Both the position numbers and the translations under genes were made by a program. A model generated the notes under the pieces. That model saw only the letters and a program-made list of their open reading frames with translations, searched no databases and was not told the DNA's origin. 64,000 nt of DNA, taken from NCBI RefSeq assembly GCF_000423365.1, contig NZ_AUHV01000003.1, positions 620,001-684,000 on the forward strand, given 5' to 3'. Of the stretch, positions 39,003-49,924 are shown in pieces. Numbering within the stretch: the first letter of the stretch is position 1; every line of letters begins with the position of its first letter. This DNA is from Maritalea myrionectae DSM 19524. GTDB taxonomy: Bacteria; Pseudomonadota; Alphaproteobacteria; Rhizobiales; Devosiaceae.

Positions 39003-39482
39003 CTATCCGCCAGCGTTCATTTGGTCGTGACGCTGCTGAATTTCTTCCGGCCATGTCGATTTGATATAAGCCAAAACCGCGATGATTTGATCGTCGCTCA
39101 GCACCCCGTCATAAACCGGCATGTCCGTTTGATAATCTGGATTGTTGCTCAGCCTTGCGATCCCATATTTGGTCAAGTTGAACAGCAACTCATCATTATG
39201 ATGCCAGGTATGGCCCGTCTCATCATGAGGCGGCGCTGGCATGCGGCCGGATGACTTGGGTTGCTTCCAGTTTTCTTCGCCTTCCAGATTATCACCATGG
39301 CATGCCGCGCAATTGGCTTGATATATTTCTTGGCCCCTCGCCACCACTTGGGTGTTTTTATAGGGAATAAGGCCCGTTTGCGCCTCTGCTTGTGGCACCA
39401 CATATTGGGCATAGCCCCAATATCCGCCAGCCAATATCAGTGCAGCCACCGCACCGAGTGTCCATTTATTCAAGTTCTTCAT
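39003..39482 (-). CDS. Membrane-anchored mono-heme cytochrome c
   Basis: The 159-residue protein has an N-terminal anchor (about 8-26) and a class-I cytochrome domain with CAACH (C58, C61, H62). A Met in the YQTDMPVYDG region is a possible axial ligand. It is His-rich between the heme site and this Met (HDETGHTWHHNDE), which may add a metal site. It is the last gene of the eight-gene copper operon and lies 1 nt after the L,D-transpeptidase gene. It probably passes electrons from the multicopper oxidase side to or from the respiratory chain, though this is inference. Confidence 0.88.
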   Translation of the reverse strand: MKNLNKWTLGAVAALILAGGYWGYAQYVVPQAEAQTGLIPYKNTQVVARGQEIYQANCAACHGDNLEGEENWKQPKSSGRMPAPPHDETGHTWHHNDELLFNLTKYGIARLSNNPDYQTDMPVYDGVLSDDQIIAVLAYIKSTWPEEIQQRHDQMNAGG

Positions 39483-39483
39483 T

Positions 39484-40149
39484 TTACATCACCACAATGG
39501 GGGTCTTATTCGGAACCCGCTGATAAAGATCGATAATATCGTGATTAAATAGCCTGACGCAGCCGCTGGAGACCGCTTTGCCAATGCTCCAATATTCCGG
39601 CGTACCGTGCAGCCGATAAAGCGTATCTTTTCCATCCTTAAAAATGTAAAGCGCGCGCGCACCCAACGGATTTTTCAACCCCGGCTGCATACCGCCATTT
39701 TCATGGCTATATTTTGCCAAATGCGGTTCGCGTTTGATCATTTCGGCAGGCGGTGTCCAGGTTGGCCATTTGCGTTTCCATTGCACCATGGCCCGGCCCG
39801 ACCACGAAAAGCCGGCGCGGCCCAAGCCAACGCCATATCGTATCGCTTTATTGTCAGCCTGCACCAGATAAAGGAAAAACGCTGACGTATCGACGATAAT
39901 CGTGCCCACAGGTTCTTTGGTGCGATAGCGCACGGTCTGGCGATAATATTGCGGGTCAATTTTTTCCACCGGCAGCGCCGCAATCGGAAAACGTTCTTTC
40001 GGCAAAGGCCCATAAAGCGCTTTGGCCGCAGATAGGTCGGGGACTTCACTGGCCGTCGTTGTGCAACCAGCCAACACGCCGGTAAGAGCAAAAGCGCCTG
40101 CCCCTTTCAGCATATGTCGCCGTTCCAGCGAGAAATAAGATGAGTTCAT
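39484..40149 (-). CDS. L,D-transpeptidase (YkuD family), exported
   Basis: The 221-residue protein cross-links peptidoglycan or attaches proteins to it. The YkuD motif HGTPEYWSIGKAVSSGCVRL has the catalytic Cys and His intact. The N terminus combines a Tat-like RRHMLKGAGAF and a lipobox-like LAGC, so it is exported and possibly lipidated. ATG 40149 is taken; a GTG nine bases upstream is open. It sits inside the copper operon. Copper is known to inhibit L,D-transpeptidases in E. coli, so a copper-induced copy may replace or protect that function. Confidence 0.88.
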   Translation of the reverse strand: MNSSYFSLERRHMLKGAGAFALTGVLAGCTTTASEVPDLSAAKALYGPLPKERFPIAALPVEKIDPQYYRQTVRYRTKEPVGTIIVDTSAFFLYLVQADNKAIRYGVGLGRAGFSWSGRAMVQWKRKWPTWTPPAEMIKREPHLAKYSHENGGMQPGLKNPLGARALYIFKDGKDTLYRLHGTPEYWSIGKAVSSGCVRLFNHDIIDLYQRVPNKTPIVVM

Positions 40150-40212
40150 TTTTACCACATATAATAATAGGCCATGCGCGTGGGCACGGGCTGTTCAACA
40201 TCAAAAGGTGAC

Positions 40213-40539
40213 TTAGACGTTGTGCAATATGGGCGGTGGTCCGTTTGGCCATTCCTCGATGGCCCGCATCGGCAAGACGAATGTTTCAGAAGCGCGCTCT
40301 AACCTTGGTGGCATCACAAGCACAAAACCACTTAGGATGGCGTGCACGCACTCGCTGGCACAATCCATTGCGCCCAATGTGGCCGCCGCCTTGTCATCAC
40401 AGCAGCCATGCGCACTTTCCACTGATTGCTCATAAACCTCAATCAGCGCAAAGCTCCCGCCTTGCGCCGCATTGCTGGCCATGTTGAGCTGGCCCAGCAA
40501 CAAAATCGCTGCGACCAAAAGAGTGAAAATCCGGATCAT
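40213..40539 (-). CDS. Small exported Cys-containing protein of the copper operon
   Basis: The 108-residue product has a hydrophobic N terminus (export signal). It then has a cluster of H44, C46, C47, C60, C64 and H66, suited to metal binding. The C-terminal part (MPPRLERASETFVLPMRAIEE...PPPIL) ends in a proline motif shared with the other small protein at 43542-43889. I do not recognise a family. Its place 3' of the multicopper oxidase gene suggests a copper-handling or assembly role. A GTG six bases upstream is an alternative start. Confidence 0.65.
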   Translation of the reverse strand: MIRIFTLLVAAILLLGQLNMASNAAQGGSFALIEVYEQSVESAHGCCDDKAAATLGAMDCASECVHAILSGFVLVMPPRLERASETFVLPMRAIEEWPNGPPPILHNV

Positions 40540-40595
40540 AAACACAATCTAACCGCCACTGAGCGCCATTTCTAGTCCAAACATGTGCATCGAGG

Positions 40596-42008
40596 TCAAT
40601 CCGTCACTTCAAACCATGCATTCATGCCTGATGCCGCGTGCTCAAGCATATGACAATGGAACAGCCATTTACCCGGATTGTCGGCCACAAACGCAATACG
40701 CGTTGATTGCTCCGCACCCACCAAGAAGGTGTCGCGCCACAATGGGCTTTGCTCAACGCCGCCCCCATCGCGATCTTCAATCAGGAAGTGATGTCCATGC
40801 ACATGCATCGCATGCATAAAGGCTGTGATGTTAGAAACATTCAACTCCACCGTCTGCCCCCTCTTCACGCTGAACAGCGGCTCCTCAGCCAGGTTGGCGA
40901 CATTGTTGAACGCCCAAAACTGCTTGGTGCGTTGAAACCCACCACGGTCCAACTTTTCACCCTGATAATAGATATTATCAAGCTGCCCCATCGCCCCTCC
41001 GGTCATGCGCAAGTCAAACTTGAACCGATCATCCTTCGCAGGTAGGGGCAGTTTGTTTGGTTTTGGCACCGTAAACGCAGCCACTTCTTGCGCTGGGTTA
41101 CGCACCTCAAACGAGCAAAAGGCGAAAGGCTGTTGAGACAGTTCCTCAAGCACAAAGTCCTCCTCTGGCTCGACCAGCAGATCCACACGTTGGGCCGGAC
41201 CAAGCAATAAGGGTGTATAGCCAAGCTCCATCGGGGCGTCGGGCAAAGCCTGTCCGTCAAACGCGAGAATTTTGCCGCCAAATCGTGCGGGATCAATGTC
41301 CAGAATGCGCGAATTGCTGGCATTGACCAACCGCAACCGGGTAGGCGCATTCTTGGGCAGTGAGATAGTAGGCAGGCTTTGCCCATTCACCGTGAGCCAA
41401 TTGCCCATACGCCCCCCATGGCTCCAATCCATGGGCGCACCTAAACTGGCCGCATCAAACTTGCCTTCGCCATCCAACCGCCAATCATCAATAATCAAAA
41501 GATGATCTTGCGCTTCCGGCAATATTGACCCGTCTGCCGGTTCAACAATCAGACCGCCATAAAGGCCGCGGGCCACCTGTTCCCAGCTTTTGTGGTGCGC
41601 ATGATACCAATAGGTGCCAGCATCAGGCGCCACAAATTCATAGGTGAAACGCCCACCGGGCGGCACAGGGTCTTGCGTCAATCCGGACACACCATCCATT
41701 TCGTTTGCGATCCGCAATCCATGCCAATGGATGGATGTAGGTTCCGGCAAGGCGTTGGTAAACTCAATGGTCACCCGCTCCCCTTGCTTGATGCGCAAGG
41801 TTGGCGCGGTCACCTGTCCATTGTAGCTCCACAATGTGGATTCTTGAGCATCAGGAGCGGGGTGCAGTTTGTGCTGCACCGGCTGTGCCACCAGTTTGAA
41901 ACTGGTCCCGGCTCCCTCTTTTGCCCCGCTCATGGATGGCATCATAACCAGCGCTGCCGCGCCGCCACCTAATAGTTTCAGCGCATCTCGCCTACTGGGT
42001 TGCAACAT
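40596..42008 (-). CDS. Multicopper oxidase, Tat-exported (CopA/CueO-type)
   Basis: The 470-residue enzyme probably oxidises Cu(I) to Cu(II) in the periplasm. ATG 42008 with GGGAGAA upstream gives a twin-arginine signal (SRRDALKLLGGG); the longer frame to 42113 lies inside the upstream gene. All copper ligand motifs are present: SIHWHGLRI, YWYHAHH, HAMHVHGHHF and FHCHMLEHAASGM (type 1 Cys, His and Met). The start overlaps the diheme cytochrome by 17 nt, so the two are coupled. A cytochrome partner suggests that electrons may go to a cytochrome as well as to oxygen. Confidence 0.92.
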   Translation of the reverse strand: MLQPSRRDALKLLGGGAAALVMMPSMSGAKEGAGTSFKLVAQPVQHKLHPAPDAQESTLWSYNGQVTAPTLRIKQGERVTIEFTNALPEPTSIHWHGLRIANEMDGVSGLTQDPVPPGGRFTYEFVAPDAGTYWYHAHHKSWEQVARGLYGGLIVEPADGSILPEAQDHLLIIDDWRLDGEGKFDAASLGAPMDWSHGGRMGNWLTVNGQSLPTISLPKNAPTRLRLVNASNSRILDIDPARFGGKILAFDGQALPDAPMELGYTPLLLGPAQRVDLLVEPEEDFVLEELSQQPFAFCSFEVRNPAQEVAAFTVPKPNKLPLPAKDDRFKFDLRMTGGAMGQLDNIYYQGEKLDRGGFQRTKQFWAFNNVANLAEEPLFSVKRGQTVELNVSNITAFMHAMHVHGHHFLIEDRDGGGVEQSPLWRDTFLVGAEQSTRIAFVADNPGKWLFHCHMLEHAASGMNAWFEVTD

Positions 42009-42897
42009 CGGTTTCTCCCAACAAATAAATCGAAATGGCCTCAAGGTCCTTCGGTGCAAGAAATGATGTGCCGTCATGCACCACTTCAACCATGCTGCCA
42101 CCGAATACGTCACCGTCTGGCTTCACACCGCTTTTCAACGCATAGGCAAGCGCACTTTGGGTCCAGCCTTTTTTCTTGAGCGCCGTCGCGTGAATGGCAG
42201 GTGTTTTGCCACCGGTTGGAAGTTTGTTCGCCCCTTGTAAATCAAAGCTCGCCTTGCGCGCGCCCGCAAAATTACGTGGGGTATGACACGCACCGCAATG
42301 GGCGGGCCCTCTCACGATATATTTGCCGCGATTCCAAATATCCGATTGGGTCTCGTCCGGCTCGAATGTAGAAAAATCCACAAACGCCGCGCGCCACAAT
42401 TTCAATCCCGGCCGGAAGTTAAATGGAAACTTCATGGCGTGCGGCACTGAAGGTTCATCCACGGCAGGCACGGTTTGAAATGCCGCCCACAGATCGGCAA
42501 TGTCCTGATCGGGCATCTTGGCATAAAACGGATATGGAAATGATGGATAATAGGGTTCCCCATCCGGAGAGACACCCTGGCGCACCGCTTTGGCAAACTC
42601 ATCAATCGTCCAATCGCCCAAGCCATGTTCCGCAGATTGGGTGAGGTTGGGCGAGTAAAAGGTGCCAAAATCCGTGTCGAGTTCCACACCGCCAGCCAGG
42701 GCCGCTCCACCATTTTCGCCATCCGTATGGCAAGCGATACAGCCCGACATTCTGGCCAAATAGGCGCCCCGTTTTGCATTACCTTCAAGTTGTTTCAATT
42801 CAGGTGGATTGCCAATGGGCCAAAACACAATGGCAATGGTGGACGCAACAGCTACCGCTGTTGCGCCCATCAAAAGCGCAATTAGTCTGTTCACCAT
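41992..42897 (-). CDS. Diheme cytochrome c, membrane-anchored
   Basis: The 301-residue protein has an N-terminal helix (about 5-27) and two class-I heme domains with CIACH (C53, C56, H57) and CGACH (C201, C204, H205). The pattern resembles the diheme subunits of membrane-bound dehydrogenases and of FixP-like chains. Its ATG overlaps the stop of the cytochrome c' gene, and its 3' end overlaps the multicopper oxidase start, so these three genes are translated as a unit. It likely relays electrons between the oxidase and the membrane. Confidence 0.9.
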   Translation of the reverse strand: MVNRLIALLMGATAVAVASTIAIVFWPIGNPPELKQLEGNAKRGAYLARMSGCIACHTDGENGGAALAGGVELDTDFGTFYSPNLTQSAEHGLGDWTIDEFAKAVRQGVSPDGEPYYPSFPYPFYAKMPDQDIADLWAAFQTVPAVDEPSVPHAMKFPFNFRPGLKLWRAAFVDFSTFEPDETQSDIWNRGKYIVRGPAHCGACHTPRNFAGARKASFDLQGANKLPTGGKTPAIHATALKKKGWTQSALAYALKSGVKPDGDVFGGSMVEVVHDGTSFLAPKDLEAISIYLLGETDVATQ

Positions 42898-43499
42898 TAC
42901 TTCTTCTCAACGCGAAATTTGCCATGGCAACTGGCACAGGTTTGCGCCAGCATATTGAACACGCCATCGGCGGGCATATTGGCAAGATCTTCCGGGTCCA
43001 TCATTTGCGAACCACCCATCATGCCACCAGTACTGCCCATCATGCCCGAGCTATCCATCATACCCGAACCGCTCATCATATCTGAGCTGTCCATCATGCC
43101 ACCATTGTTCTGGCCCTGCATCATCAGCCCGTTCGGCGCCGCAGCTTCCAATGCAACCGCATAAGTCTCGAGCTGCTTGGCAAGAATTTCAAACTCTGAC
43201 CAGTCAGACCAGATTTCAGGCTTCGCCTCGGAAGGGGCACCATCAGTGCCCTCTGGAAACAATTTGGTCAGCGTTTCGCCCGCATGTTGCTGAATGGTTT
43301 GCGCATTGGTTTTGACCACATCAGCGTCATAATCGACATCGCCGCGCATCATTGACGATAGGGATTTAACGGCCTTCCCCATCGCCATCATGCCGTCCAT
43401 ACGTTCTTTAACAACACCGGTTGCACCCCCGTGGGCGAGCGCAGCCCCAGTGATTGCCAATGAAAACACAGCGCCGATTGTAAGTTCAATTTTGTTCAT
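42897..43499 (-). CDS. Cytochrome c' with methionine-rich insertion
   Basis: The 200-residue periplasmic protein has a signal peptide (to about residue 22, LAHGG) and a four-helix class-II cytochrome frame ending with the C-terminal heme motif CASCH (C188, C191, H192). This is the cytochrome c' layout. Between the third and fourth helices it carries a segment (126-167) with seven Met-Met pairs separated by Gly, Ser, Asp and Asn. Met-rich stretches of this kind bind Cu(I) in copper proteins such as CueO and PcoA. In this operon the insertion probably makes the cytochrome copper-responsive or a copper sponge. Confidence 0.9.
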   Translation of the reverse strand: MNKIELTIGAVFSLAITGAALAHGGATGVVKERMDGMMAMGKAVKSLSSMMRGDVDYDADVVKTNAQTIQQHAGETLTKLFPEGTDGAPSEAKPEIWSDWSEFEILAKQLETYAVALEAAAPNGLMMQGQNNGGMMDSSDMMSGSGMMDSSGMMGSTGGMMGGSQMMDPEDLANMPADGVFNMLAQTCASCHGKFRVEKK

Positions 43500-43541
43500 G
43501 ATTGTCCTCTAAATTTTTGAAAAGCGGTTTGGGCTCAACAT

Positions 43542-43889
43542 TTAGAGTCGGGGGGGAGGTATCTCCTGCGCGATCGAACGCGCCAAAAGCATCTGCATAT
43601 TGCTTTGTGCGTAACTATGGGCGATGGCCACAAAACCTGTCGGCAAGTGCCAGCCAGCAACAGCAATTTTCACGCCACAATGAACACTTGCCTGATCACC
43701 ACAGCCCATTTCATAGCCAGTCTTGGCCGAATGGGCATGTGTATCTTGCGCAACCACCTCGTGTCCGTGATCGCCAAAAACCAACGTCGCCCCATTGACC
43801 GGCAATGCCGTCGCAATGGCGAGCACAAATGCGAGCGCCAAGAACGTCACATTAAGCAAACTGAGTTTATGACAAGCTGTTCTAATCAA
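43542..43889 (-). CDS. Small exported His/Cys protein of the copper operon
   Basis: The gene overlaps the preceding cytochrome stop. I place the start at TTG 43889, with AGGTGG upstream, but this is uncertain. The 115-residue product has one N-terminal hydrophobic segment (about 10-34), then H41, H43, H51, H53, C63, H70 and C71, and ends EIPPPRL. The overall plan (signal, metal-type residues, then a C-terminal PPP motif) matches the protein at 40213-40539, so the two may be distant paralogues. No known family was recognised. Confidence 0.6.
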   Translation of the reverse strand: MIRTACHKLSLLNVTFLALAFVLAIATALPVNGATLVFGDHGHEVVAQDTHAHSAKTGYEMGCGDQASVHCGVKIAVAGWHLPTGFVAIAHSYAQSNMQMLLARSIAQEIPPPRL

Positions 43890-44289
43890 TTCCGTTTGCC
43901 ACCTGCAATTTCCGGATATAGGCAATTACCGCCTGCATATCACTTTCCTCAATGTCGACGGCGGGCATATTTCCAAACGGCCAGTGATGGGCGCGAACAC
44001 CATTTTGCACGGCCAACATAAAGGCAATGTCCGCATGATGGGAGGGTTCATAAATCTTATGCACAAGAGGTGGCCCAACTCCATCAAGTCCAGTTGCGTT
44101 TTCCCCGTGGCAACTGGCGCAATTCTCTTCAAATTTTGATTTTCCGAGCGCGGTCTGCCCACTCACCTCAATCGGCGTCACCGAAACCATCGGCGCGCGC
44201 GTCGGTGCGGGCGTATTGCTCCGCACATAAACGAAAGCCAATAGCGCCACAATGGCCAGCGCTGAGAGGATGAGGACGTTCTTGTTCAT
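43882..44289 (-). CDS. Membrane-anchored mono-heme cytochrome c (first gene of the copper operon)
   Basis: The 135-residue protein starts at ATG 44289 with AAGGGC upstream; an in-frame ATG at 44319 is less likely. It has one N-terminal helix and a class-I heme domain with CASCH (C57, C60, H61) and HHWPFGNMP as the likely axial-Met segment. It is clearly paralogous to the divergent cytochrome at 44500-44928 (shared GPPLVH-IY-P-HH, AHHWPFGNMP and YIRKLQVANG). A CueR-type promoter lies 60 bp upstream. Confidence 0.88.
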   Translation of the reverse strand: MNKNVLILSALAIVALLAFVYVRSNTPAPTRAPMVSVTPIEVSGQTALGKSKFEENCASCHGENATGLDGVGPPLVHKIYEPSHHADIAFMLAVQNGVRAHHWPFGNMPAVDIEESDMQAVIAYIRKLQVANGID

Positions 44290-44347
44290 GTGGCCCTTGT
44301 GCCCAGACAAAAAGTTCAAAATTAGGCGATGAATAAAATCTTAACTA

Positions 44348-44378
44348 AAAATGTAGGTTCCAGCAGGGGTAAGGTCAA
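44348..44378 (-). promoter_or_regulatory. CueR-type promoter/operator for the eight-gene copper operon
   Basis: On the minus strand, TTGACC (44378-44373) is followed by a 19-bp spacer with TTACCCCTGCTGGAACCTA and then CATTTT (44353-44348). The long spacer and the TTGACCTTA...CTGGAA core are close to the E. coli copA promoter, where CueR binds. Its right arm is less symmetric than usual. Confidence 0.7.
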
Positions 44379-44432
44379 TCACCCGGTGCACAGTATGCCG
44401 AGGTTAAATTGCCGCAGTGCGCCACATCTCCC

Positions 44433-44463
44433 TTGACCTTCCAGCGCTGGAAGGTTGCAACCT
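44433..44463 (+). promoter_or_regulatory. CueR-type promoter/operator for cytochrome c and APC permease
   Basis: TTGACC (44433-44438) is followed by a 19-bp spacer and a weak -10 (CAACCT, 44458-44463). The 20-bp core ACCTTCCAGCGCTGGAAGGT (44436-44455) is a perfect palindrome, the ideal CueR/MerR-type copper operator. It lies about 60 bp from the divergent copper promoter. Confidence 0.8.
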
Positions 44464-44499
44464 AGGCGCACATTAGATTTGTCGGGGAAGGATGCAGCA

Positions 44500-44928
44500 T
44501 TGAAGTATGTTTTATTGGGATTTGTAATCCTTGGCCTTGTCGGGGTGGGATATAACATGCTCACCGCCACAAATTATCCTGACACTCAAAATATGTCGGG
44601 GCGCGTCGCGGTCAACGCAACCGAGCTCTCGCCTCTGGCAGCAAAGGGCGAAGAAATCTTTAAAGCCAACTGCGCCAGCTGCCATGGTGAAAATGCAGGC
44701 GGCAGCGATAGCGGGCCACCATTGGTGCACGATATCTATAATCCGGGCCATCATGGCGACGGCGCATTTTTAAGCGCAGCCCAAAATGGTGTGCCGCAAC
44801 ACCACTGGAACTTTGGCAATATGCCGCCCCGACCGGACATGACCCAATTGCACATTGCCGCCATCGTCAAATATATTCGGGAACTGCAGGTGGCCAACGG
44901 CGTTGAGTACCAAGCACATAATATGTGA
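44500..44928 (+). CDS. Membrane-anchored mono-heme cytochrome c (divergent paralogue)
   Basis: The start is taken as TTG 44500, 8 nt after GGGGAAGGA, because no ATG lies ahead of the membrane helix; the open frame extends to 44455 inside the operator. The 142-residue protein has an N-terminal helix, CASCH (C58, C61, H62) and QHHWNFGNMPP as the axial-Met region. It is a paralogue of the cytochrome at 43882-44289. It is followed 28 nt later by the APC permease. Confidence 0.85.
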   Translation: MKYVLLGFVILGLVGVGYNMLTATNYPDTQNMSGRVAVNATELSPLAAKGEEIFKANCASCHGENAGGSDSGPPLVHDIYNPGHHGDGAFLSAAQNGVPQHHWNFGNMPPRPDMTQLHIAAIVKYIRELQVANGVEYQAHNM

Positions 44929-44956
44929 TCGACAACACGGCCACGAAGGGGGAGAG

Positions 44957-46285
44957 ATGGAAAGCGACCAAAAGCAAGGTGACTATAAGGCCAACTCAAT
45001 TTCCTTGAGCGGCACAGTTGCCATGGGCACCGGCGTTATGATTGGCGCAGGTATCTTTGCCCTCACCGGGCAGATGGCCGAACTCGCGGGCAACCTCTTC
45101 CCGCTTTCCTTTATCATCGGCGCAATTGTCACCCTGTTCAGCGCCTACAGCTATATCAAAATGTCCAACGCCTGGCCCTCCGCAGGGGGCATCGCGATGA
45201 TCTTGCAAAAATGCTATGGCGCGGGCGCCGTTGCGGCGGGCGCAGCCTTGCTCATGGCCCTGAGCATGGTGATCGCAGAAAGCCTGGTGGCACGCACATT
45301 TGCCACCTATGTATTGCGATTCTTTGATATTTCCGGCGGCATATTGGTGCCCGTTCTGGCTGTTGGCGTCATATTGTTCGCCTTTATCGTCAATATTGCG
45401 GGCAATCGTTCCATCGGCATGATTTCCATTGTTATGGCTGTGTTCAAAATCGCTGGTATTGGCCTGTTTGGCGGTGCCGCGCTTTGGGCTAGCGGCTTTG
45501 ATTTCTCGATCTCCCAAACCGCGTCATCAAATGTCGATGGGTTCGGTTTTGTTGCCTCGATTGCCTTCGGTATTCTCGCCTTCAAAGGCTTCACCACCAT
45601 CACCAACAGCGGCGCGGAAGTCGAAAACCCGCATAAAAATGTGGGACGCGCCATTGTGATTTCAATCCTGATTTGCACCGCTACTTATTTGCTGGTCGCC
45701 TTCGGCGTAAATGCCAGCTTGCCCATCGACCAAATCATCGCTGCAAAGGATTATGCGCTGGCCGAAGCCGCCGAACCTGCCTTGGGCCAAATTGGCTTTA
45801 CGCTCACCATCCTTTTGGCCGCGATTGCGACCGCGTCAGGCGTCATTGCCAGTATTTTTGCGGTGTCGCGCATGTTGGCCATGCTCACCGATATGAAGAT
45901 GATCCCGCACAGCCATTTCGGCATGAGCGGCACGATCCAGCGTCACACATTAATCTACACTGTGGTGATTGCCTCATTTCTCGCGATCTTTTTCGACCTG
46001 AGCCGCATTGCGTCGCTTGGTGCCTTTTTCTATCTGGTGATGGATATGCTGGTGCATTGGGGCGTGTTCCGCTATCGCCGAAAAGAGATCGGGGCTTCCC
46101 CCTATATCTTGATCGCCGCACTCGTGTTCGATGCTGTCGTGCTGGCCGCGTTTAGCATCACCAAAGCGGGCAGCGACCCCACCATTGTGGTTATCGCGTG
46201 GGTGGCTATCGCTGCGGTCTTTGTGTTTGAGCGCTACTATTTGGGCAAATGGATTGCGGATCCAGAACAGCACGCTCACCACTAA
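44957..46285 (+). CDS. APC-superfamily amino acid permease
   Basis: The 442-residue protein has about 12 membrane helices and the APC opening MGTGVMIGAGIFALTGQMAELAG. It further shows AFKGFTTITNSGAEVENP in the sixth-helix region. ATG 44957 follows GGGGGAGAG. Its position behind a cytochrome c and a CueR-type promoter is notable. Import of His, Cys or another copper-binding amino acid during copper stress is a possible role, but the substrate is not visible in the sequence. Confidence 0.88.
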   Translation: MESDQKQGDYKANSISLSGTVAMGTGVMIGAGIFALTGQMAELAGNLFPLSFIIGAIVTLFSAYSYIKMSNAWPSAGGIAMILQKCYGAGAVAAGAALLMALSMVIAESLVARTFATYVLRFFDISGGILVPVLAVGVILFAFIVNIAGNRSIGMISIVMAVFKIAGIGLFGGAALWASGFDFSISQTASSNVDGFGFVASIAFGILAFKGFTTITNSGAEVENPHKNVGRAIVISILICTATYLLVAFGVNASLPIDQIIAAKDYALAEAAEPALGQIGFTLTILLAAIATASGVIASIFAVSRMLAMLTDMKMIPHSHFGMSGTIQRHTLIYTVVIASFLAIFFDLSRIASLGAFFYLVMDMLVHWGVFRYRRKEIGASPYILIAALVFDAVVLAAFSITKAGSDPTIVVIAWVAIAAVFVFERYYLGKWIADPEQHAHH

Positions 46286-46309
46286 AAATCACACAATTTA
46301 GCACGCGTT

Positions 46310-47356
46310 TCATCGCCAGGTGAGGCGCGGCAATTGCTGTTTGACTTGATCAAGGTCCAAAATATCCGGCAGGGAAATAACACCTGTTTGCTTTTGCACG
46401 TCGGCAGCTCGCGCACCCATTGCCGCAATTTCTGCGGTCAATTCGGACTGATCGCCCCCCAGCATCTCAATGCTCCCCAAAATCTGTTGCTCAGAATCAT
46501 AAGCGACCGATCTTATCGAGGTCCGCACAGGGCCAACGGGCGGAAATTTCGACATCATGCCCGCTAAGAATCCCGAATGGCGACGCAACACAGTGCTGAA
46601 CGGCAAACGCACCAATTGGCCAAGCACATTGTTCATCCAATTTGGCGCAACACCCACAAATGTCTGCGCAGCATGGAGATTATGTCGATTTGCGATGGAT
46701 ATTTGATCCGAAAATCCAACACCAATCGCTGTCGCCTGCCGCGTTTTCGGCAACTTATATTCAACACTCATGAGCTGATCGCGCGGCGAAAGCACTTTTT
46801 GCGCGCCATCAATCAAAACAGGGTAAGGGCTGGCCAAGGCCTCAAAAAACCATTTGGTGGCCGCATAACCGTGATGCTCGCCCATGCCCATTTCAATGAA
46901 GGTGTGAATACGGTCGACCTGAGCTTCCTGCTCCGCCAGTTTTGCGGCCATCAAATTGGTCAGCCCGGGCGATGCACCCACCTCGGTGATACAAAGGCTG
47001 TTTTGCCCATACTGGCCAAACAGCCCCCTCACCCGGTTTAAATAGTCCTCGGTGGCCGACACATCGATGAATGACAGGCCCGTTTGCGCCAGAGCCGACA
47101 GCCATTCGTCACTAATGGTTTCAACGGTGTTCACCACCACATCGCCTGGTTGGAACTGTCCGGCCACAACAGGGCCGTTCACATTCAATTCAATGGCTTT
47201 AGCCTGGTCGCCCAATTCACCGGCCAACGCTTCCGCTTTGCCTAAATTGCGACCCGCGATGAAAAGTTCATCGCCCGCCGCCAGGGTTGTGATCAGGCTC
47301 TGCGCCACCGCAGAGCCGACATCCCCATATCCGCCAATGATCCAATATCTTGTCAC
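46310..47356 (-). CDS. Saccharopine dehydrogenase-like NAD(P)-binding protein
   Basis: The 348-residue protein starts with a Rossmann motif (YWIIGGYGDVGSAVAQSL) and continues in the saccharopine dehydrogenase-like pattern: VVNTVETISDEW, FIDVSATEDYLNRV, EVGASPGLTNLMA. It ends in a variable C-terminal domain. Family members are diverse oxidoreductases, and this one is not close enough to lysine-pathway enzymes to name a reaction. It lies 8 nt behind copA, so it is probably co-induced by copper. Confidence 0.82.
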   Translation of the reverse strand: MTRYWIIGGYGDVGSAVAQSLITTLAAGDELFIAGRNLGKAEALAGELGDQAKAIELNVNGPVVAGQFQPGDVVVNTVETISDEWLSALAQTGLSFIDVSATEDYLNRVRGLFGQYGQNSLCITEVGASPGLTNLMAAKLAEQEAQVDRIHTFIEMGMGEHHGYAATKWFFEALASPYPVLIDGAQKVLSPRDQLMSVEYKLPKTRQATAIGVGFSDQISIANRHNLHAAQTFVGVAPNWMNNVLGQLVRLPFSTVLRRHSGFLAGMMSKFPPVGPVRTSIRSVAYDSEQQILGSIEMLGGDQSELTAEIAAMGARAADVQKQTGVISLPDILDLDQVKQQLPRLTWR

Positions 47357-47364
47357 GACGGCCT

Positions 47365-49857
47365 CTAGCCTTCAGTCACAGCAACTGCTGCTGGCGCATT
47401 AAAGCGCCGCAAACGTAGTGCATTCCCCAAAACGAACACACTGGACAGCGCCATGGCCCCAGCCGCCAACATTGGCGACAGCATTGTGCCCGTGAATGGA
47501 TAAAGAAGGCCCGCCGCAACAGGGATCAAGCTGACATTGTAGGCAAACGCCCAAAACAGGTTCTGGTGAATGTTTTTAATGGTCGCCTTCGACAAGGAAA
47601 TCGCATTCGCCACGCCACGCATGTCGCCAGACATGAGCACCACATCAGCGCTTTCAATTGCAATGTCCGTGCCCGTGCCGATGGCCACACCCACATCTGC
47701 TTGAGCAAGCGCTGGCGCATCATTGATGCCATCGCCCACAAAGCTCACATGGGTATTGTTTTCTTGCAATTGCTTGATGGCGTCCACTTTGCCGGCAGGC
47801 AACACTTCGGCAATCACACTGTCGATCTTTAGCTCGCGCGCAATCGCCTCGGCTGTCGCCTTGTTGTCGCCTGTGATCATGGCCACTTTCAGCCCCAAAT
47901 CATGTAAGGACTTGATTGCGGCTGGCGTGGTCTCCTTGATCGGATCAGCCACGGCAATAATGGCAGCGATCTTACCATCAATCGCGGCATAAAGCGGAGA
48001 CTTCGCCTCGCGACCCAACTGGGCAGCGATGTGCTCATGTTCGCTCAAATCATGGCCCAATTTCACCATATAGCGATCTGCGCCAACTTCGATTTTGCGA
48101 CCATTGGCTTCCGCCTCGATCCCATAGCCGGTGACAGAGTCAAAACGCGTGGTCTCTGGCACGTCCAATCCCCGCTCCTTCGCCGCCACCACAATGGCTT
48201 CAGCAATCGGATGTTCTGAATTGGCTTCTGCCGCAGCGACAAGGGAAAGCGCTTCGGCTTCGTCGAAGCCATTCAGCACATTCAAATCGGTCAAAACGGG
48301 TCGACCCAAGGTCAATGTGCCAGTCTTGTCCACGGCCACAACATGGGTATTTTTCAAATCCTGCAACGCCTCGCCATTGCGGAACAACACGCCCATTTCA
48401 GCGGCACGGCCCGTGCCCACCATAATGGAGGTTGGCGTCGCCAGCCCCATGGCACAAGGGCACGCAATGATCAGCACGGCAACGCCATTGATCAACGCGA
48501 ATGAGAGGGCAGGATCTGGTCCAAAGAACAGCCACACAGCAACCGTCAGCGCCGCGATCAACATCACGAAAGGCACAAATATTGCAGTGACTTTATCCAC
48601 CAAGGCTTGGATCGGTAGCTTCGCCCCTTGAGCGTTTTCAACCATTTTGATGATCTGCGCCAACGCACTATCAGCACCAACTTTGGTCGCTTTAAATTCA
48701 AAGCTACCGGTTTTATTGATCGTCCCGCCAATCACTTCGCTGCCGGTCGTCTTTTCCACCGGCACAGGCTCGCCGGAAATCATGGCCTCATCAACAAAGC
48801 TGCTGCCTTTCGTCAATTCACCATCAACAGGCACCTTCTCACCAGGACGCACGCGCACAATGTCTCCGGCCACAACTTCATGCAAAGGCACTTCCACAAA
48901 GGCCCCATCGCGTAAAACATGCGCAGACTTGGCCTGCAACTGCATCAATTTGGTGATCGCTTCGCTGGTTCGCCCCTTCGCCCGGGCTTCAAGCACCCGC
49001 CCAAGCAAAATGAGCGTGATGATCACGGCACTGGCTTCGTAATAAACATTCGCTGTGCCTGCAGGCAAAATGCTGCTGGCAAACGTGGAAACAATTGAAT
49101 ATCCCCACGCAGCGGAAGACCCCAGCACCACAAGAGAATTCATTTCCGGGGCCATGCGTAACAGCGCGGGAATACCCTTTTTATAAAAAACCATCCCCGG
49201 ACCAAACTGCACAATGGTCGCCAGCAGGAAGTAGAAATAATAAAGGTTCTGCCGTCCGATATTCTCCATCAAAAGGCTGTGCACACCCGGAATGAAGTGT
49301 GAGCCCATTTCCAGCACAAAAAGCGGCACGGTGAAAATCGCCGCAACCCAAAGATTGCGTTTCAGCGTCTGATATTCGGCATCTTTTTTGGCGCTGCGAT
49401 CCTCATGCGCGCTGGGCTCATCAATCTGCGTCTTCGCCACATAGCCCGCATTTTTAACAGCAGCAATCAGATCCGCCACAGCGACATTCGATGCGGCCTC
49501 AACATGGGCGCTCTCGGTCGCCAAATTTACATTGGCGCTCAAAACGCCTTCGACTTTTTTAAGACCATCTTCCGCGCGCTTCACACAGGAGGCACATGTC
49601 ATGCCTTCAATATCGAGGGTGATCGTTTTTGTCGGCACCCCATATCCGGCAGTTTCAATTGACCGGATTACATCGGGAAGGCCCGCAGCATCTTTCATCT
49701 GGATACGCGCGGTTTCTGTGGCGAGGTTGATCGACACATCCGAAACGCTCTCAACGCCAGAAATAGCCGTTTCGGCGCGTTTGACGCAGGAGGCGCAACT
49801 CAGGCCGGAAATGGACAGATTGAGGATTTGATCTTCGGTCTTTACTTGGGCGGACAT
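47365..49857 (-). CDS. copA: Cu(I)-translocating P-type ATPase CopA
   Basis: The 830-residue P1B-type ATPase exports cytoplasmic Cu(I). It has two N-terminal heavy-metal domains (GLSCASC, Cys 21 and 24; GMTCASC, Cys 88 and 91), the membrane CPC motif in [16 protein letters not shown], phosphorylation site [16 protein letters not shown] and [16 protein letters not shown]. The C-terminal helix pair contains the [11 protein letters not shown] motif of Cu+ pumps. A canonical CueR-type promoter lies 37 bp upstream. Of the copper genes here it is the only one acting on cytoplasmic copper. Confidence 0.96.
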
Positions 49858-49893
49858 GGCTTTTCTTTCACTTGAATCTTGACGATTTCAGCC

Positions 49894-49924
49894 AACTTAA
49901 TCCTTCCAGTCACTATAAGGTCAA
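49894..49924 (-). promoter_or_regulatory. CueR-type promoter/operator of copA
   Basis: On the minus strand, TTGACC (49924-49919), a 19-bp spacer (TTATAGTGACTGGAAGGAT) and -10 TAAGTT (49899-49894) reproduce the E. coli copA promoter layout, including ACCTTA...CTGGAAGG. A 19-bp spacer is the mark of MerR-family activation. Confidence 0.87.

Follow-up and report, generated by a model that had tools for sequence, protein, structure and literature searches.

What are two small proteins with cysteine motifs and proline-rich ends doing inside an operon of cytochromes and a multicopper oxidase (MCO), and what controls the whole? The question is raised by a 64-kb stretch (hereafter the window) of the 3.54-Mb assembly of Maritalea myrionectae DSM 19524, in which eight genes on the minus strand, in 5'->3' order cyc4, CutF1, cytochrome c', a diheme cytochrome, the MCO, CutF2, an L,D-transpeptidase (LDT) and cyc1, lie beside a divergent cytochrome-permease unit and copA. 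The two small proteins are, from their sequences, best read as CutF-like nascent-chain copper sensors, and by analogy with published systems we think it likely that the locus is a two-key operon for copper defence: CueR would switch on its transcription in response to cytosolic Cu(I), and the leaders would serve as gates of translation that respond to copper at the site of export. We hold with still greater confidence that CutF1 is such a gate, and with somewhat less that CutF2 is a leader of some kind, which it probably is. Gene content, promoters, conservation, a ruler-like distance from cysteine to proline in both small proteins and the burial of the ribosome-binding site behind CutF1 were computed.

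The genes of the operon, in order of transcription, are as follows.

43882..44289, minus strand: cyc4, a class-I cytochrome c and gene 1 of the operon (Cytochrom_C, E 1.7e-12)
43542..43889, minus strand: CutF1, a putative CutF-like leader of 115 amino acids (aa) with a TTG start, a hydrophobic N-terminus, an HCG motif and a PPPRL end
42897..43499, minus strand: cytochrome c' with a Met-rich insert (Cytochrom_C_2, PF01322, E 9.5e-24)
41992..42897, minus strand: diheme class-I cytochrome c (Cytochrom_C, E 2.4e-8; two CxxCH)
40596..42008, minus strand: multicopper oxidase (Cu-oxidase_3, E 1.3e-43; a Tat-like signal that stays under the model cut-offs)
40213..40539, minus strand: CutF2, a putative CutF-like leader of 108 aa with a hydrophobic N-terminus, CC and CASEC (CxxxC) motifs and a PPPILHNV end
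39484..40149, minus strand: L,D-transpeptidase (YkuD, E 1.5e-23; SSGC motif; a Tat-lipoprotein-like signal, judged by eye)
39003..39482, minus strand: cyc1, a class-I cytochrome c (Cytochrom_C, E 1.5e-13; APPH and GHTWHH motifs)

A preliminary description of this DNA had listed four class-I cytochromes (one of them diheme), a cytochrome c', an MCO, an LDT, two small proteins and CopA, and its list is right. It had taken the small proteins to be of a metal type; both are present, and the CutF/CruR class fits them better than a plain metal-binding protein does, which would add a translational layer to the locus. Their lengths lie within the 150-aa limit of the CutF-like filters in PMC9973294 (beyond abstracts, the literature cited here was covered as parts of PMC9973294, PMC9426467, PMC8456105, PMC10141476 and PMC11390936). 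The PP that these filters place within the final 15 residues is invariant in 23 of 23 CutF1 and 10 of 10 aligned CutF2 sequences. The Sec signal peptide that the filters ask for may be represented in both leaders by a hydrophobic N-terminal segment, found by Kyte-Doolittle alone, and the next gene is near and on the same strand, 42 nucleotides (nt) from CutF1 to cytochrome c' and 63 nt from CutF2 to the LDT gene. CxxxC is found in 9 of the 10 aligned CutF2 sequences. These sets were drawn from 101 loci, the window included (the loci of relatives carry L numbers below): CutF1 is present in 52 of them, reduced to 23 by dropping any leader whose 80 C-terminal residues agreed with another's at more than 72 positions, and CutF2 has 14 candidates, of which 10 were aligned and the others (L040, L056, L122 and L131) added to the distance count only.

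The same two proteins are returned by a rule scan for open reading frames (ORFs) of 60-150 aa with a hydrophobic N-terminus and PPP in the last 15 residues, a version that PP-only leaders escape. The 64-kb window holds exactly two such ORFs, CutF1 and CutF2, by the PPP or the PP rule, and shuffled windows (n=20) hold a mean of 0.25. The PPP rule applied to the loci of relatives (1,682 kb) yields 60 ORFs with 34 distinct tails, placed 51 times before cytochrome c', 7 times after the MCO, twice before cyc4 and nowhere else. CutF1 is selected as a protein, because the ratio of nonsynonymous to synonymous substitution rates (dN/dS) against M. mobilis is about 0.11 (dN 0.041, dS 0.382) and all four proline codons are used in its motif (28 CCT, 23 CCA, 20 CCG and 13 CCC). 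Its start, as chosen by script, coincides with the final base of the cyc4 stop codon in L072, L074, L076, L088, L092 and L093 and 8 nt inside cyc4 in the window and L118; gaps of 2-7 nt occur in L078, L045 and L046 and one of 49 nt in L040, and for L120 the script placed the start 59 nt inside. Given such overlap or near-contact, ribosomes finishing cyc4 probably enter CutF1, so that cyc4 itself would lie outside the gate.

A feature that recalls nascent-chain sensing is a ruler. From the last motif cysteine of CutF1 (HCG; ..DC in Rhodobacterales), a motif picked by eye, the distance to the first proline is 39, 40 or 41 residues in 15, 7 and 1 of the 23 sequences respectively, across a spacer with a mean identity of 13%. 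Without any choice of motif, a cysteine stands 36-41 residues before PPP in 59 of the 60 scanned ORFs, the exception being L094 at 42. In CutF2 the distance is 37 residues in all 10 aligned sequences (spacer identity 19%), and over all 14 candidates the last cysteine precedes PP by 37 residues in 12, by 39 in one and by 41 in one. The spacing of CruR is given as 45 residues, constant within one or two, and five added residues weakened regulation (PMC9426467); that of CutF is likewise stated as 45 (PMC9973294). From the sequences, a constant length joined to a free sequence is what we infer that measurement by the ribosome tunnel would give.

Behind CutF1 the ruler is followed by an RNA element that could respond to a paused ribosome.

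43507..43547, minus strand: stem-loop CTCTAAAT...ATTTAGAG, between the end of CutF1 and the start of cytochrome c'

Its 5' arm (43540-43547) contains the CutF1 stop codon, and its 3' arm (43507-43514) hides most of the cytochrome c' Shine-Dalgarno sequence AGAGG (43506-43510). Burial of the ribosome-binding site was scored against shuffles that preserve the site, after removal of any stretch that shared over 75% identity with one already taken and of matches starting past query residue 25. At the cytochrome c' genes of 18 loci with CutF1 the Stouffer z is -4.69, with p<0.5 in 17 of 18; at the six cytochrome c' genes without CutF1 it is +0.33, and at 106 control starts in the same loci (diheme cytochrome, MCO, cyc1, cyc4 and copA) +0.88, the difference having a Mann-Whitney p of 4e-6. 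Fourteen LDT starts were left out of the pooled controls because LDT follows CutF2. The site is at least half paired in 16 of 23 CutF1 loci, and 15 of these 16 pair mostly at -9..+20 nt from the last proline codon, the stretch that a ribosome held at PPP would occupy; in another group, which includes L093, L095 and L096, with the fold begun earlier, the partner is the Asp-Pro codons themselves. The arms vary between groups yet remain complementary.

Several results weigh against this reading. CxxxC is found in 0 of 23 CutF1 sequences; the first CutF rule set (list A) asked for this motif and the later lists do not (PMC9973294), and cysteine variants among CutF-like proteins are reported (PMC8456105). 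DUF2946 (PF11162), the family named for CutF/CruR, matches 1 of 23 CutF1 (E 0.016) and 0 of 10 CutF2 sequences, and neither leader has a convincing family in Pfam or NCBIfam. Searches with profiles of the leaders at E<=0.01 give matches in 5 of 385 class genomes and 11 of 297 order genomes, Maritalea's own included, several of them partial or with an internal stop, and the PP rule returns 115 ORFs from the relatives' loci, some of them beside other MCO genes or outside the operon. On the RNA side, the window hairpin alone is modest (z -2.04; p 0.215 and 0.252 in two further tests), and all the burial z-scores overstate independence because the loci share descent and have in part been spread by plasmids. 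The site is not half buried in 7 of 23 CutF1 loci, and RNAalifold, run on three family groups, finds no consensus hairpin and so no formal covariation, probably because MAFFT leaves the hairpin arms out of register. Finally, burial between CutF2 and LDT is not significant, with a z of -1.60 over 8 loci and -0.75 over the 14 LDT starts of any context, and on that ground we do not claim a CutF2 hairpin over the LDT ribosome-binding site. L040 has ten bases paired between the CutF2 end and the LDT start region. As a separate observation, hairpins of -30 to -44 kcal/mol (in a 120-nt stretch) after CutF2 in L042, L044, L045 and L046 pair the CutF2-end codons with a downstream GGAAG-type sequence.

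Transcription of the operon can be placed in a wider regulon. CueR-type control that joins copA, the MCO and the cytochrome set is well supported by sequence, because near-unique cores precede the copper units and recur in relatives. The cores and the further genes that they serve are the following.

44358..44378, minus strand: CueR-type core of the eight-gene operon, of the 21-bp dyad type (exact TTGACCTTN7CTGGAA; -10-like CATTTT at 19 bp)
44433..44452, plus strand: CueR-type core of the divergent cytochrome-permease unit, a 20-bp palindrome variant (exact TTGACCTTN6CTGGAA)
49904..49924, minus strand: CueR-type core of copA (exact TTGACCTTN7CTGGAA)
44500..44928, plus strand: cycdiv, a cyc4 paralogue with a TTG start, gene 1 of the divergent unit (by sequence comparison)
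44958..46285, plus strand: APC-family amino-acid permease, gene 2 of the divergent unit (AA_permease_2, E 6.9e-29)
47365..49857, minus strand: copA, a P1B-type ATPase with two HMA domains and its own promoter (E1-E2_ATPase, E 3e-59)

The three CueR-type promoters with 19-bp spacers that the preliminary description had proposed are borne out, with exact cores at the operon, the divergent unit and copA that are unique or nearly so in the genome. Exact N7 matches number three in the genome: one precedes the operon, one precedes copA, and the third, on contig C1, separates a second MCO from a second copA. The N6 pattern has one, at 44433-44452(+). Five more N7 and two more N6 matches appear when one mismatch is allowed, and by our own arithmetic about 0.03 exact matches per pattern would be expected by chance genome-wide. 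From TTGACC to the -10-like hexamer the distance is 19 bp at all three window sites (hexamers TAAGTT, CATTTT and CAACCT). The operon-type N7 core is also exact in M. mobilis (L036), and exact N6 sites recur in L036 and in M. mediterranea (L037), with one mismatch in L047, L095, L106 and others; with up to two mismatches, such sites precede copA, cyc4, cytochrome c' or the MCO in many relatives' loci. At the divergent promoter a 20-bp palindrome takes the place of the usual 21-bp dyad, yet the gap between -35 and -10 stays at 19 bp. The unit behind it had been described as divergent and of two genes, which is borne out; its second gene, left unnamed before, is the APC permease. A permease of amino acids behind a CueR-type promoter with a cytochrome is unexpected, and in L037 an N6 site stands 58 nt before a permease match.

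The gene for CueR lies outside the window, at C1:532157-532531, and encodes the sole protein above the CueR cut-off (TIGR02044, 170.2 bits; cut-off 147.4). It adjoins the second copA and the second MCO. This second copper locus (C1:532127-536530) comprises the second MCO, cueR itself and a P-type ATPase that carries YHS and HMBD domains; neither the PPP nor the PP rule picks out a CutF-like leader in its 15 kb, and it has no match to the window's cytochromes. On contig C2 (288899-288964), two operator-like sequences, TTGACCTTACAGCAACTGCAA and TTGACCTTCCAGCAAATGGAA, each with one mismatch, are separated by 24 bp, one on either strand, and a MerR-family match at C2:285289 is some 3 kb away; the two perhaps form another metal-responsive divergent promoter. 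Within the window, a saccharopine-dehydrogenase-like gene (46310-47356; Pfam slightly under cut-off) follows 8 nt behind copA and is probably cotranscribed with it; a copper role for it is not evident. ARAGORN finds no tRNA in the window, and Rfam gives nothing there at gathering scores.

How might these parts work together? For export, copper binding, arrest, the sign of the arrest and the roles of the products we infer from published work on CutF and CruR. Cytosolic Cu(I) would activate CueR, and transcription of the eight-gene operon, of the divergent unit and of copA would follow. On the operon's message cyc4 would be translated directly, and its ribosomes would pass into CutF1 through the start/stop overlap. 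The nascent CutF1 would be exported by its signal sequence, and copper on the HCG/His site near the export channel would make the ribosome dwell at the C-terminal PPP. Parked there, it would cover the 5' arm of the hairpin and free the cytochrome c' Shine-Dalgarno sequence, which would allow cytochrome c', the diheme cytochrome and the MCO to be translated. CutF2 would probably act likewise for LDT and cyc1, by some RNA step. Against periplasmic Cu(I), the Met-rich cytochrome c' and the His-rich cytochromes may bind copper and the MCO may oxidise it, while the extra LDT may compensate for LDTs inhibited by copper. If two serial leaders do act in one CueR operon, translational copper sensing would be a modular device that can be inserted before any block of genes, and the strict Cys-to-Pro distance with its free spacer would offer a mutable handle on where the ribosome-translocon path reads copper.

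Might the small proteins instead be what they first appear to be? An ordinary CueR regulon with accessory cytochromes, in which the small proteins are periplasmic copper binders or chaperones and the hairpins incidental, would account for the Cys/His residues and the hydrophobic N-terminus, which suit an exported metal-binding protein, and, as the CruR paper (PMC9426467) relates, a role as chaperone had been conjectured in the 2021 CutF study. We consider it unlikely, however: the constant Cys-to-Pro distance, the near-unconserved spacer and the terminal PPP look like a tunnel-length ruler and not like a chaperone that folds, the burial of the following ribosome-binding site goes specifically with CutF1, and later work on CutF itself showed cis action only (PMC9973294). 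A different possibility accepts the leaders and reverses their sign, so that, as with CruR, copper would relieve the arrest and downstream expression would drop by Rho-dependent termination or lost translation. CruR indeed has like parts (a Cys site, constrained spacing and a C-terminal Pro motif), a terminator-like hairpin with a weak T-run stands before LDT (40172-40189), and CutF2 is without a significant hairpin over the ribosome-binding site. Yet copper should not turn down a CueR-driven defence operon, the intergenic gaps of 42 and 63 nt are short beside the 162 nt of CruR, the ribosome-binding site before cytochrome c' is hidden in the way known from cutF-cutO, and terminator-like matches in the region are near chance (19 found, 14.3 expected). 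All told, a reversed sign seems to us improbable.

The cytochromes pose a question of their own. The match to PF01322 together with the AlphaFold model, a four-helix bundle with a C-terminal CxxCH, places the third gene product among the cytochromes c'. Foldseek ranks 1-43 for this model are all cytochromes c', the best E being 2.7e-3 and none reaching E<=0.001. Between helix 3 and the heme helix it carries a Met-rich insert with MMG repeats; residues 132-164 have a pLDDT below 50 (predicted disorder) around a core that is a helix bundle, and solved cytochromes c' match only the part preceding the insert. Of 30 cytochromes c', 22 have the insert and form alignment A5, the 8 without it being excluded: L058, L068, L094, L109, L129 and L134, which have no CutF1, and L040 and L056, which do. 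Outside the usual arrangement the insert is present in L133 (no CutF1), L060, L062 and L135. Insert and leader thus co-occur often and not always, because two genes without insert carry CutF1 and L133 has the insert without it. Ala22-His23 is invariant in A5, and cleavage at this point would leave cytochrome c' with an N-terminal histidine. In cyc4 and cycdiv the His pairs of PxHHxD and HHW..G.M are invariant (25 of 25 aligned), as are APPH and GHTWHH of cyc1 in alignment A4 (28 of 28). These His motifs look like copper ligands, and the Met-rich and His-rich motifs plausibly bind copper. The nearest solved sequence to cyc4, which has an N-terminal hydrophobic helix and a model with a pLDDT of 90.6, is the CcoP-cytochrome cy chain 6xkx (E 4.3e-19).

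From these features one may tentatively picture a Cu(I)-oxidising cytochrome chain, its electron path being conjectural; we would give this somewhat less than an even chance. Of the two roles suggested in the preliminary description, a link of Cu(I) oxidation to respiration and a buffering of copper by the cytochromes, either is conceivable. A fuller version of the two-key operon, in which CueR reads cytosolic Cu(I), two serial sensors with rulers of 37 and 39-41 residues gate successive blocks, and the cytochromes pass electrons from Cu(I) towards a terminal oxidase, we regard as doubtful. The cytochromes may alternatively not handle copper at all and may replace or supplement respiratory cytochromes c poisoned by copper in their assembly or function. 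The kinship of cyc4 with an electron-donor type of chain (6xkx) speaks for such a role, as do genes for DsbA, CcmI and a DsbD-like protein in or beside the plasmid version of the cluster; the Met-rich insert and invariant His pairs, however, exceed the needs of electron transfer, and the insert is missing from eight other cytochromes c' near MCO relatives, six without and two with CutF1. We think this replacement role possible and rather unlikely. If the Met-rich cytochrome c' does handle Cu(I), it would be a heme protein with a Cu(I) site, and copper oxidation by cytochromes becomes testable. For the remaining enzyme the literature offers a rationale: copper inhibits the LDTs of both E. coli and V. 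cholerae (PMC11390936, with reference to Peters 2018), and an LDT in a copper operon therefore makes sense as compensation.

The preliminary description would have been refuted had its gene order not recurred beside copA-type genes elsewhere; the order is conserved in many alphaproteobacteria. The MCO and its M. mobilis counterpart share 92% identity. In a scan of named genomes for MCO relatives, a cytochrome c' lies near the MCO in 49 of the best 80 of 177 loci, and these 49 have CutF1 in 45, the diheme cytochrome in 45, cyc1 in 43 and copA (within 6 kb) in 38. Removal of MCOs more than 90% identical leaves 53 of the 80 loci, with cytochrome c' in 24, CutF1 in 20 of these 24, and CutF2 in nine of the 53, all nine also with CutF1. 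This count took CutF2 only up to 600 nt after the MCO, which leaves farther leaders (L073, L121 and L124) outside it, and the relatives' set of 100 loci holds some genomes twice (for example L036 and L116). Carriers are, by name, mostly Hyphomicrobiales and Rhodobacterales. One locus labelled Planctomycetales (L040, JAGQPR010000291.1) has a cluster with both leaders that is elsewhere alphaproteobacterial, which may reflect transfer or a misbinned contig. In L060 (4574-7942, Anderseniella) and L062 (a Hyphomicrobiales metagenome-assembled genome) the cytochrome block and the MCO are divergently oriented, and some 580 nt ahead of a cyc4-type match stands a CutF-like ORF, whose end in L060 is FFHPPRL; the leader may change its place among the cluster's genes. 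L094 (8062-8391) and L109 (8147-8479) have a leader ending in LPPPR plus one residue 84-89 nt before cyc4, and their cytochromes c' are those without the Met-rich insert. Among 72,556 plasmid records, 32 hold at least 80% of a Salipiger bermudensis query, including two plasmids of D. shibae DFL 12. The incomplete gene table of one of them, pDSHI01 (NC_009955), lists LDT, cytochromes, MCO, DsbA, copA and cueR and no gene at the CutF1 position; CutF1 was read from the sequence, where it starts on the final base of the upstream cytochrome gene. The cluster is thus also carried by plasmids of marine bacteria and may matter for copper defence there.

How does this arrangement stand beside known systems? 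The earlier statement that no described system has this exact set holds in part. In the open-access literature, covered mostly at the level of abstracts and without the CutF supplementary lists, which may contain such leaders, we found no description of it, and the main text of PMC9973294 does not mention transpeptidase, YkuD, tandem or 'two CutF'. Most of its genes are annotated elsewhere, for instance on pDSHI01, and copper genes preceded by a CutF-like protein are already known. The Cue system of E. coli comprises CueR, CopA and CueO. Maritalea shares with it the CueR-type cores, a Cu(I) ATPase and an MCO, but adds five cytochromes, an LDT, an amino-acid permease and two leaders, and has its cueR on a different contig, next to the second copA and the second MCO. 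Roseobacter-group plasmids such as D. shibae pDSHI01 come closer in gene content, with LDT, cytochrome c, CutF1, cytochrome c', diheme cytochrome, MCO and cytochrome c in series together with copA and cueR; there, in contrast, no CutF2 was found after the MCO, LDT lies upstream, and DsbA and cueR are part of the cluster.

Among nascent-chain sensors, CruR (DUF2946) of Bordetella pertussis (PMC9426467) shares the Cys motif, the C-terminal Pro motif, the constrained spacing and sensing by the nascent chain, which is predicted here. CruR is, as described there, the first gene of its operon, and copper relieves its arrest and lowers expression through Rho, whereas CutF1 and CutF2 are internal to a copper-defence operon, with short intergenic gaps and almost no Pfam similarity. 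The nearest relative in design is CutF-CutO-CutG of R. capsulatus (PMC8456105, PMC9973294), in which, so far as those papers were covered, there are likewise a small exported-type protein with a Cys site and a C-terminal Pro motif just upstream of the next gene, a hairpin over the next Shine-Dalgarno sequence, as is predicted here behind CutF1, an MCO in the operon and, in CutF as in CutF2, a CxxxC. An average of two CutF-like genes per genome is reported there, as a rule in separate neighbourhoods (PMC8456105). CutF is the first gene of cutFOG; here two leaders stand second and sixth among eight genes, CutF1 precedes a cytochrome c' rather than an MCO and CutF2 precedes LDT, CutF1 has an HCG or C.....C motif in place of CxxxC, and the ruler measures 39-41 residues in CutF1 and mostly 37 in CutF2 against the 45 stated for CutF.

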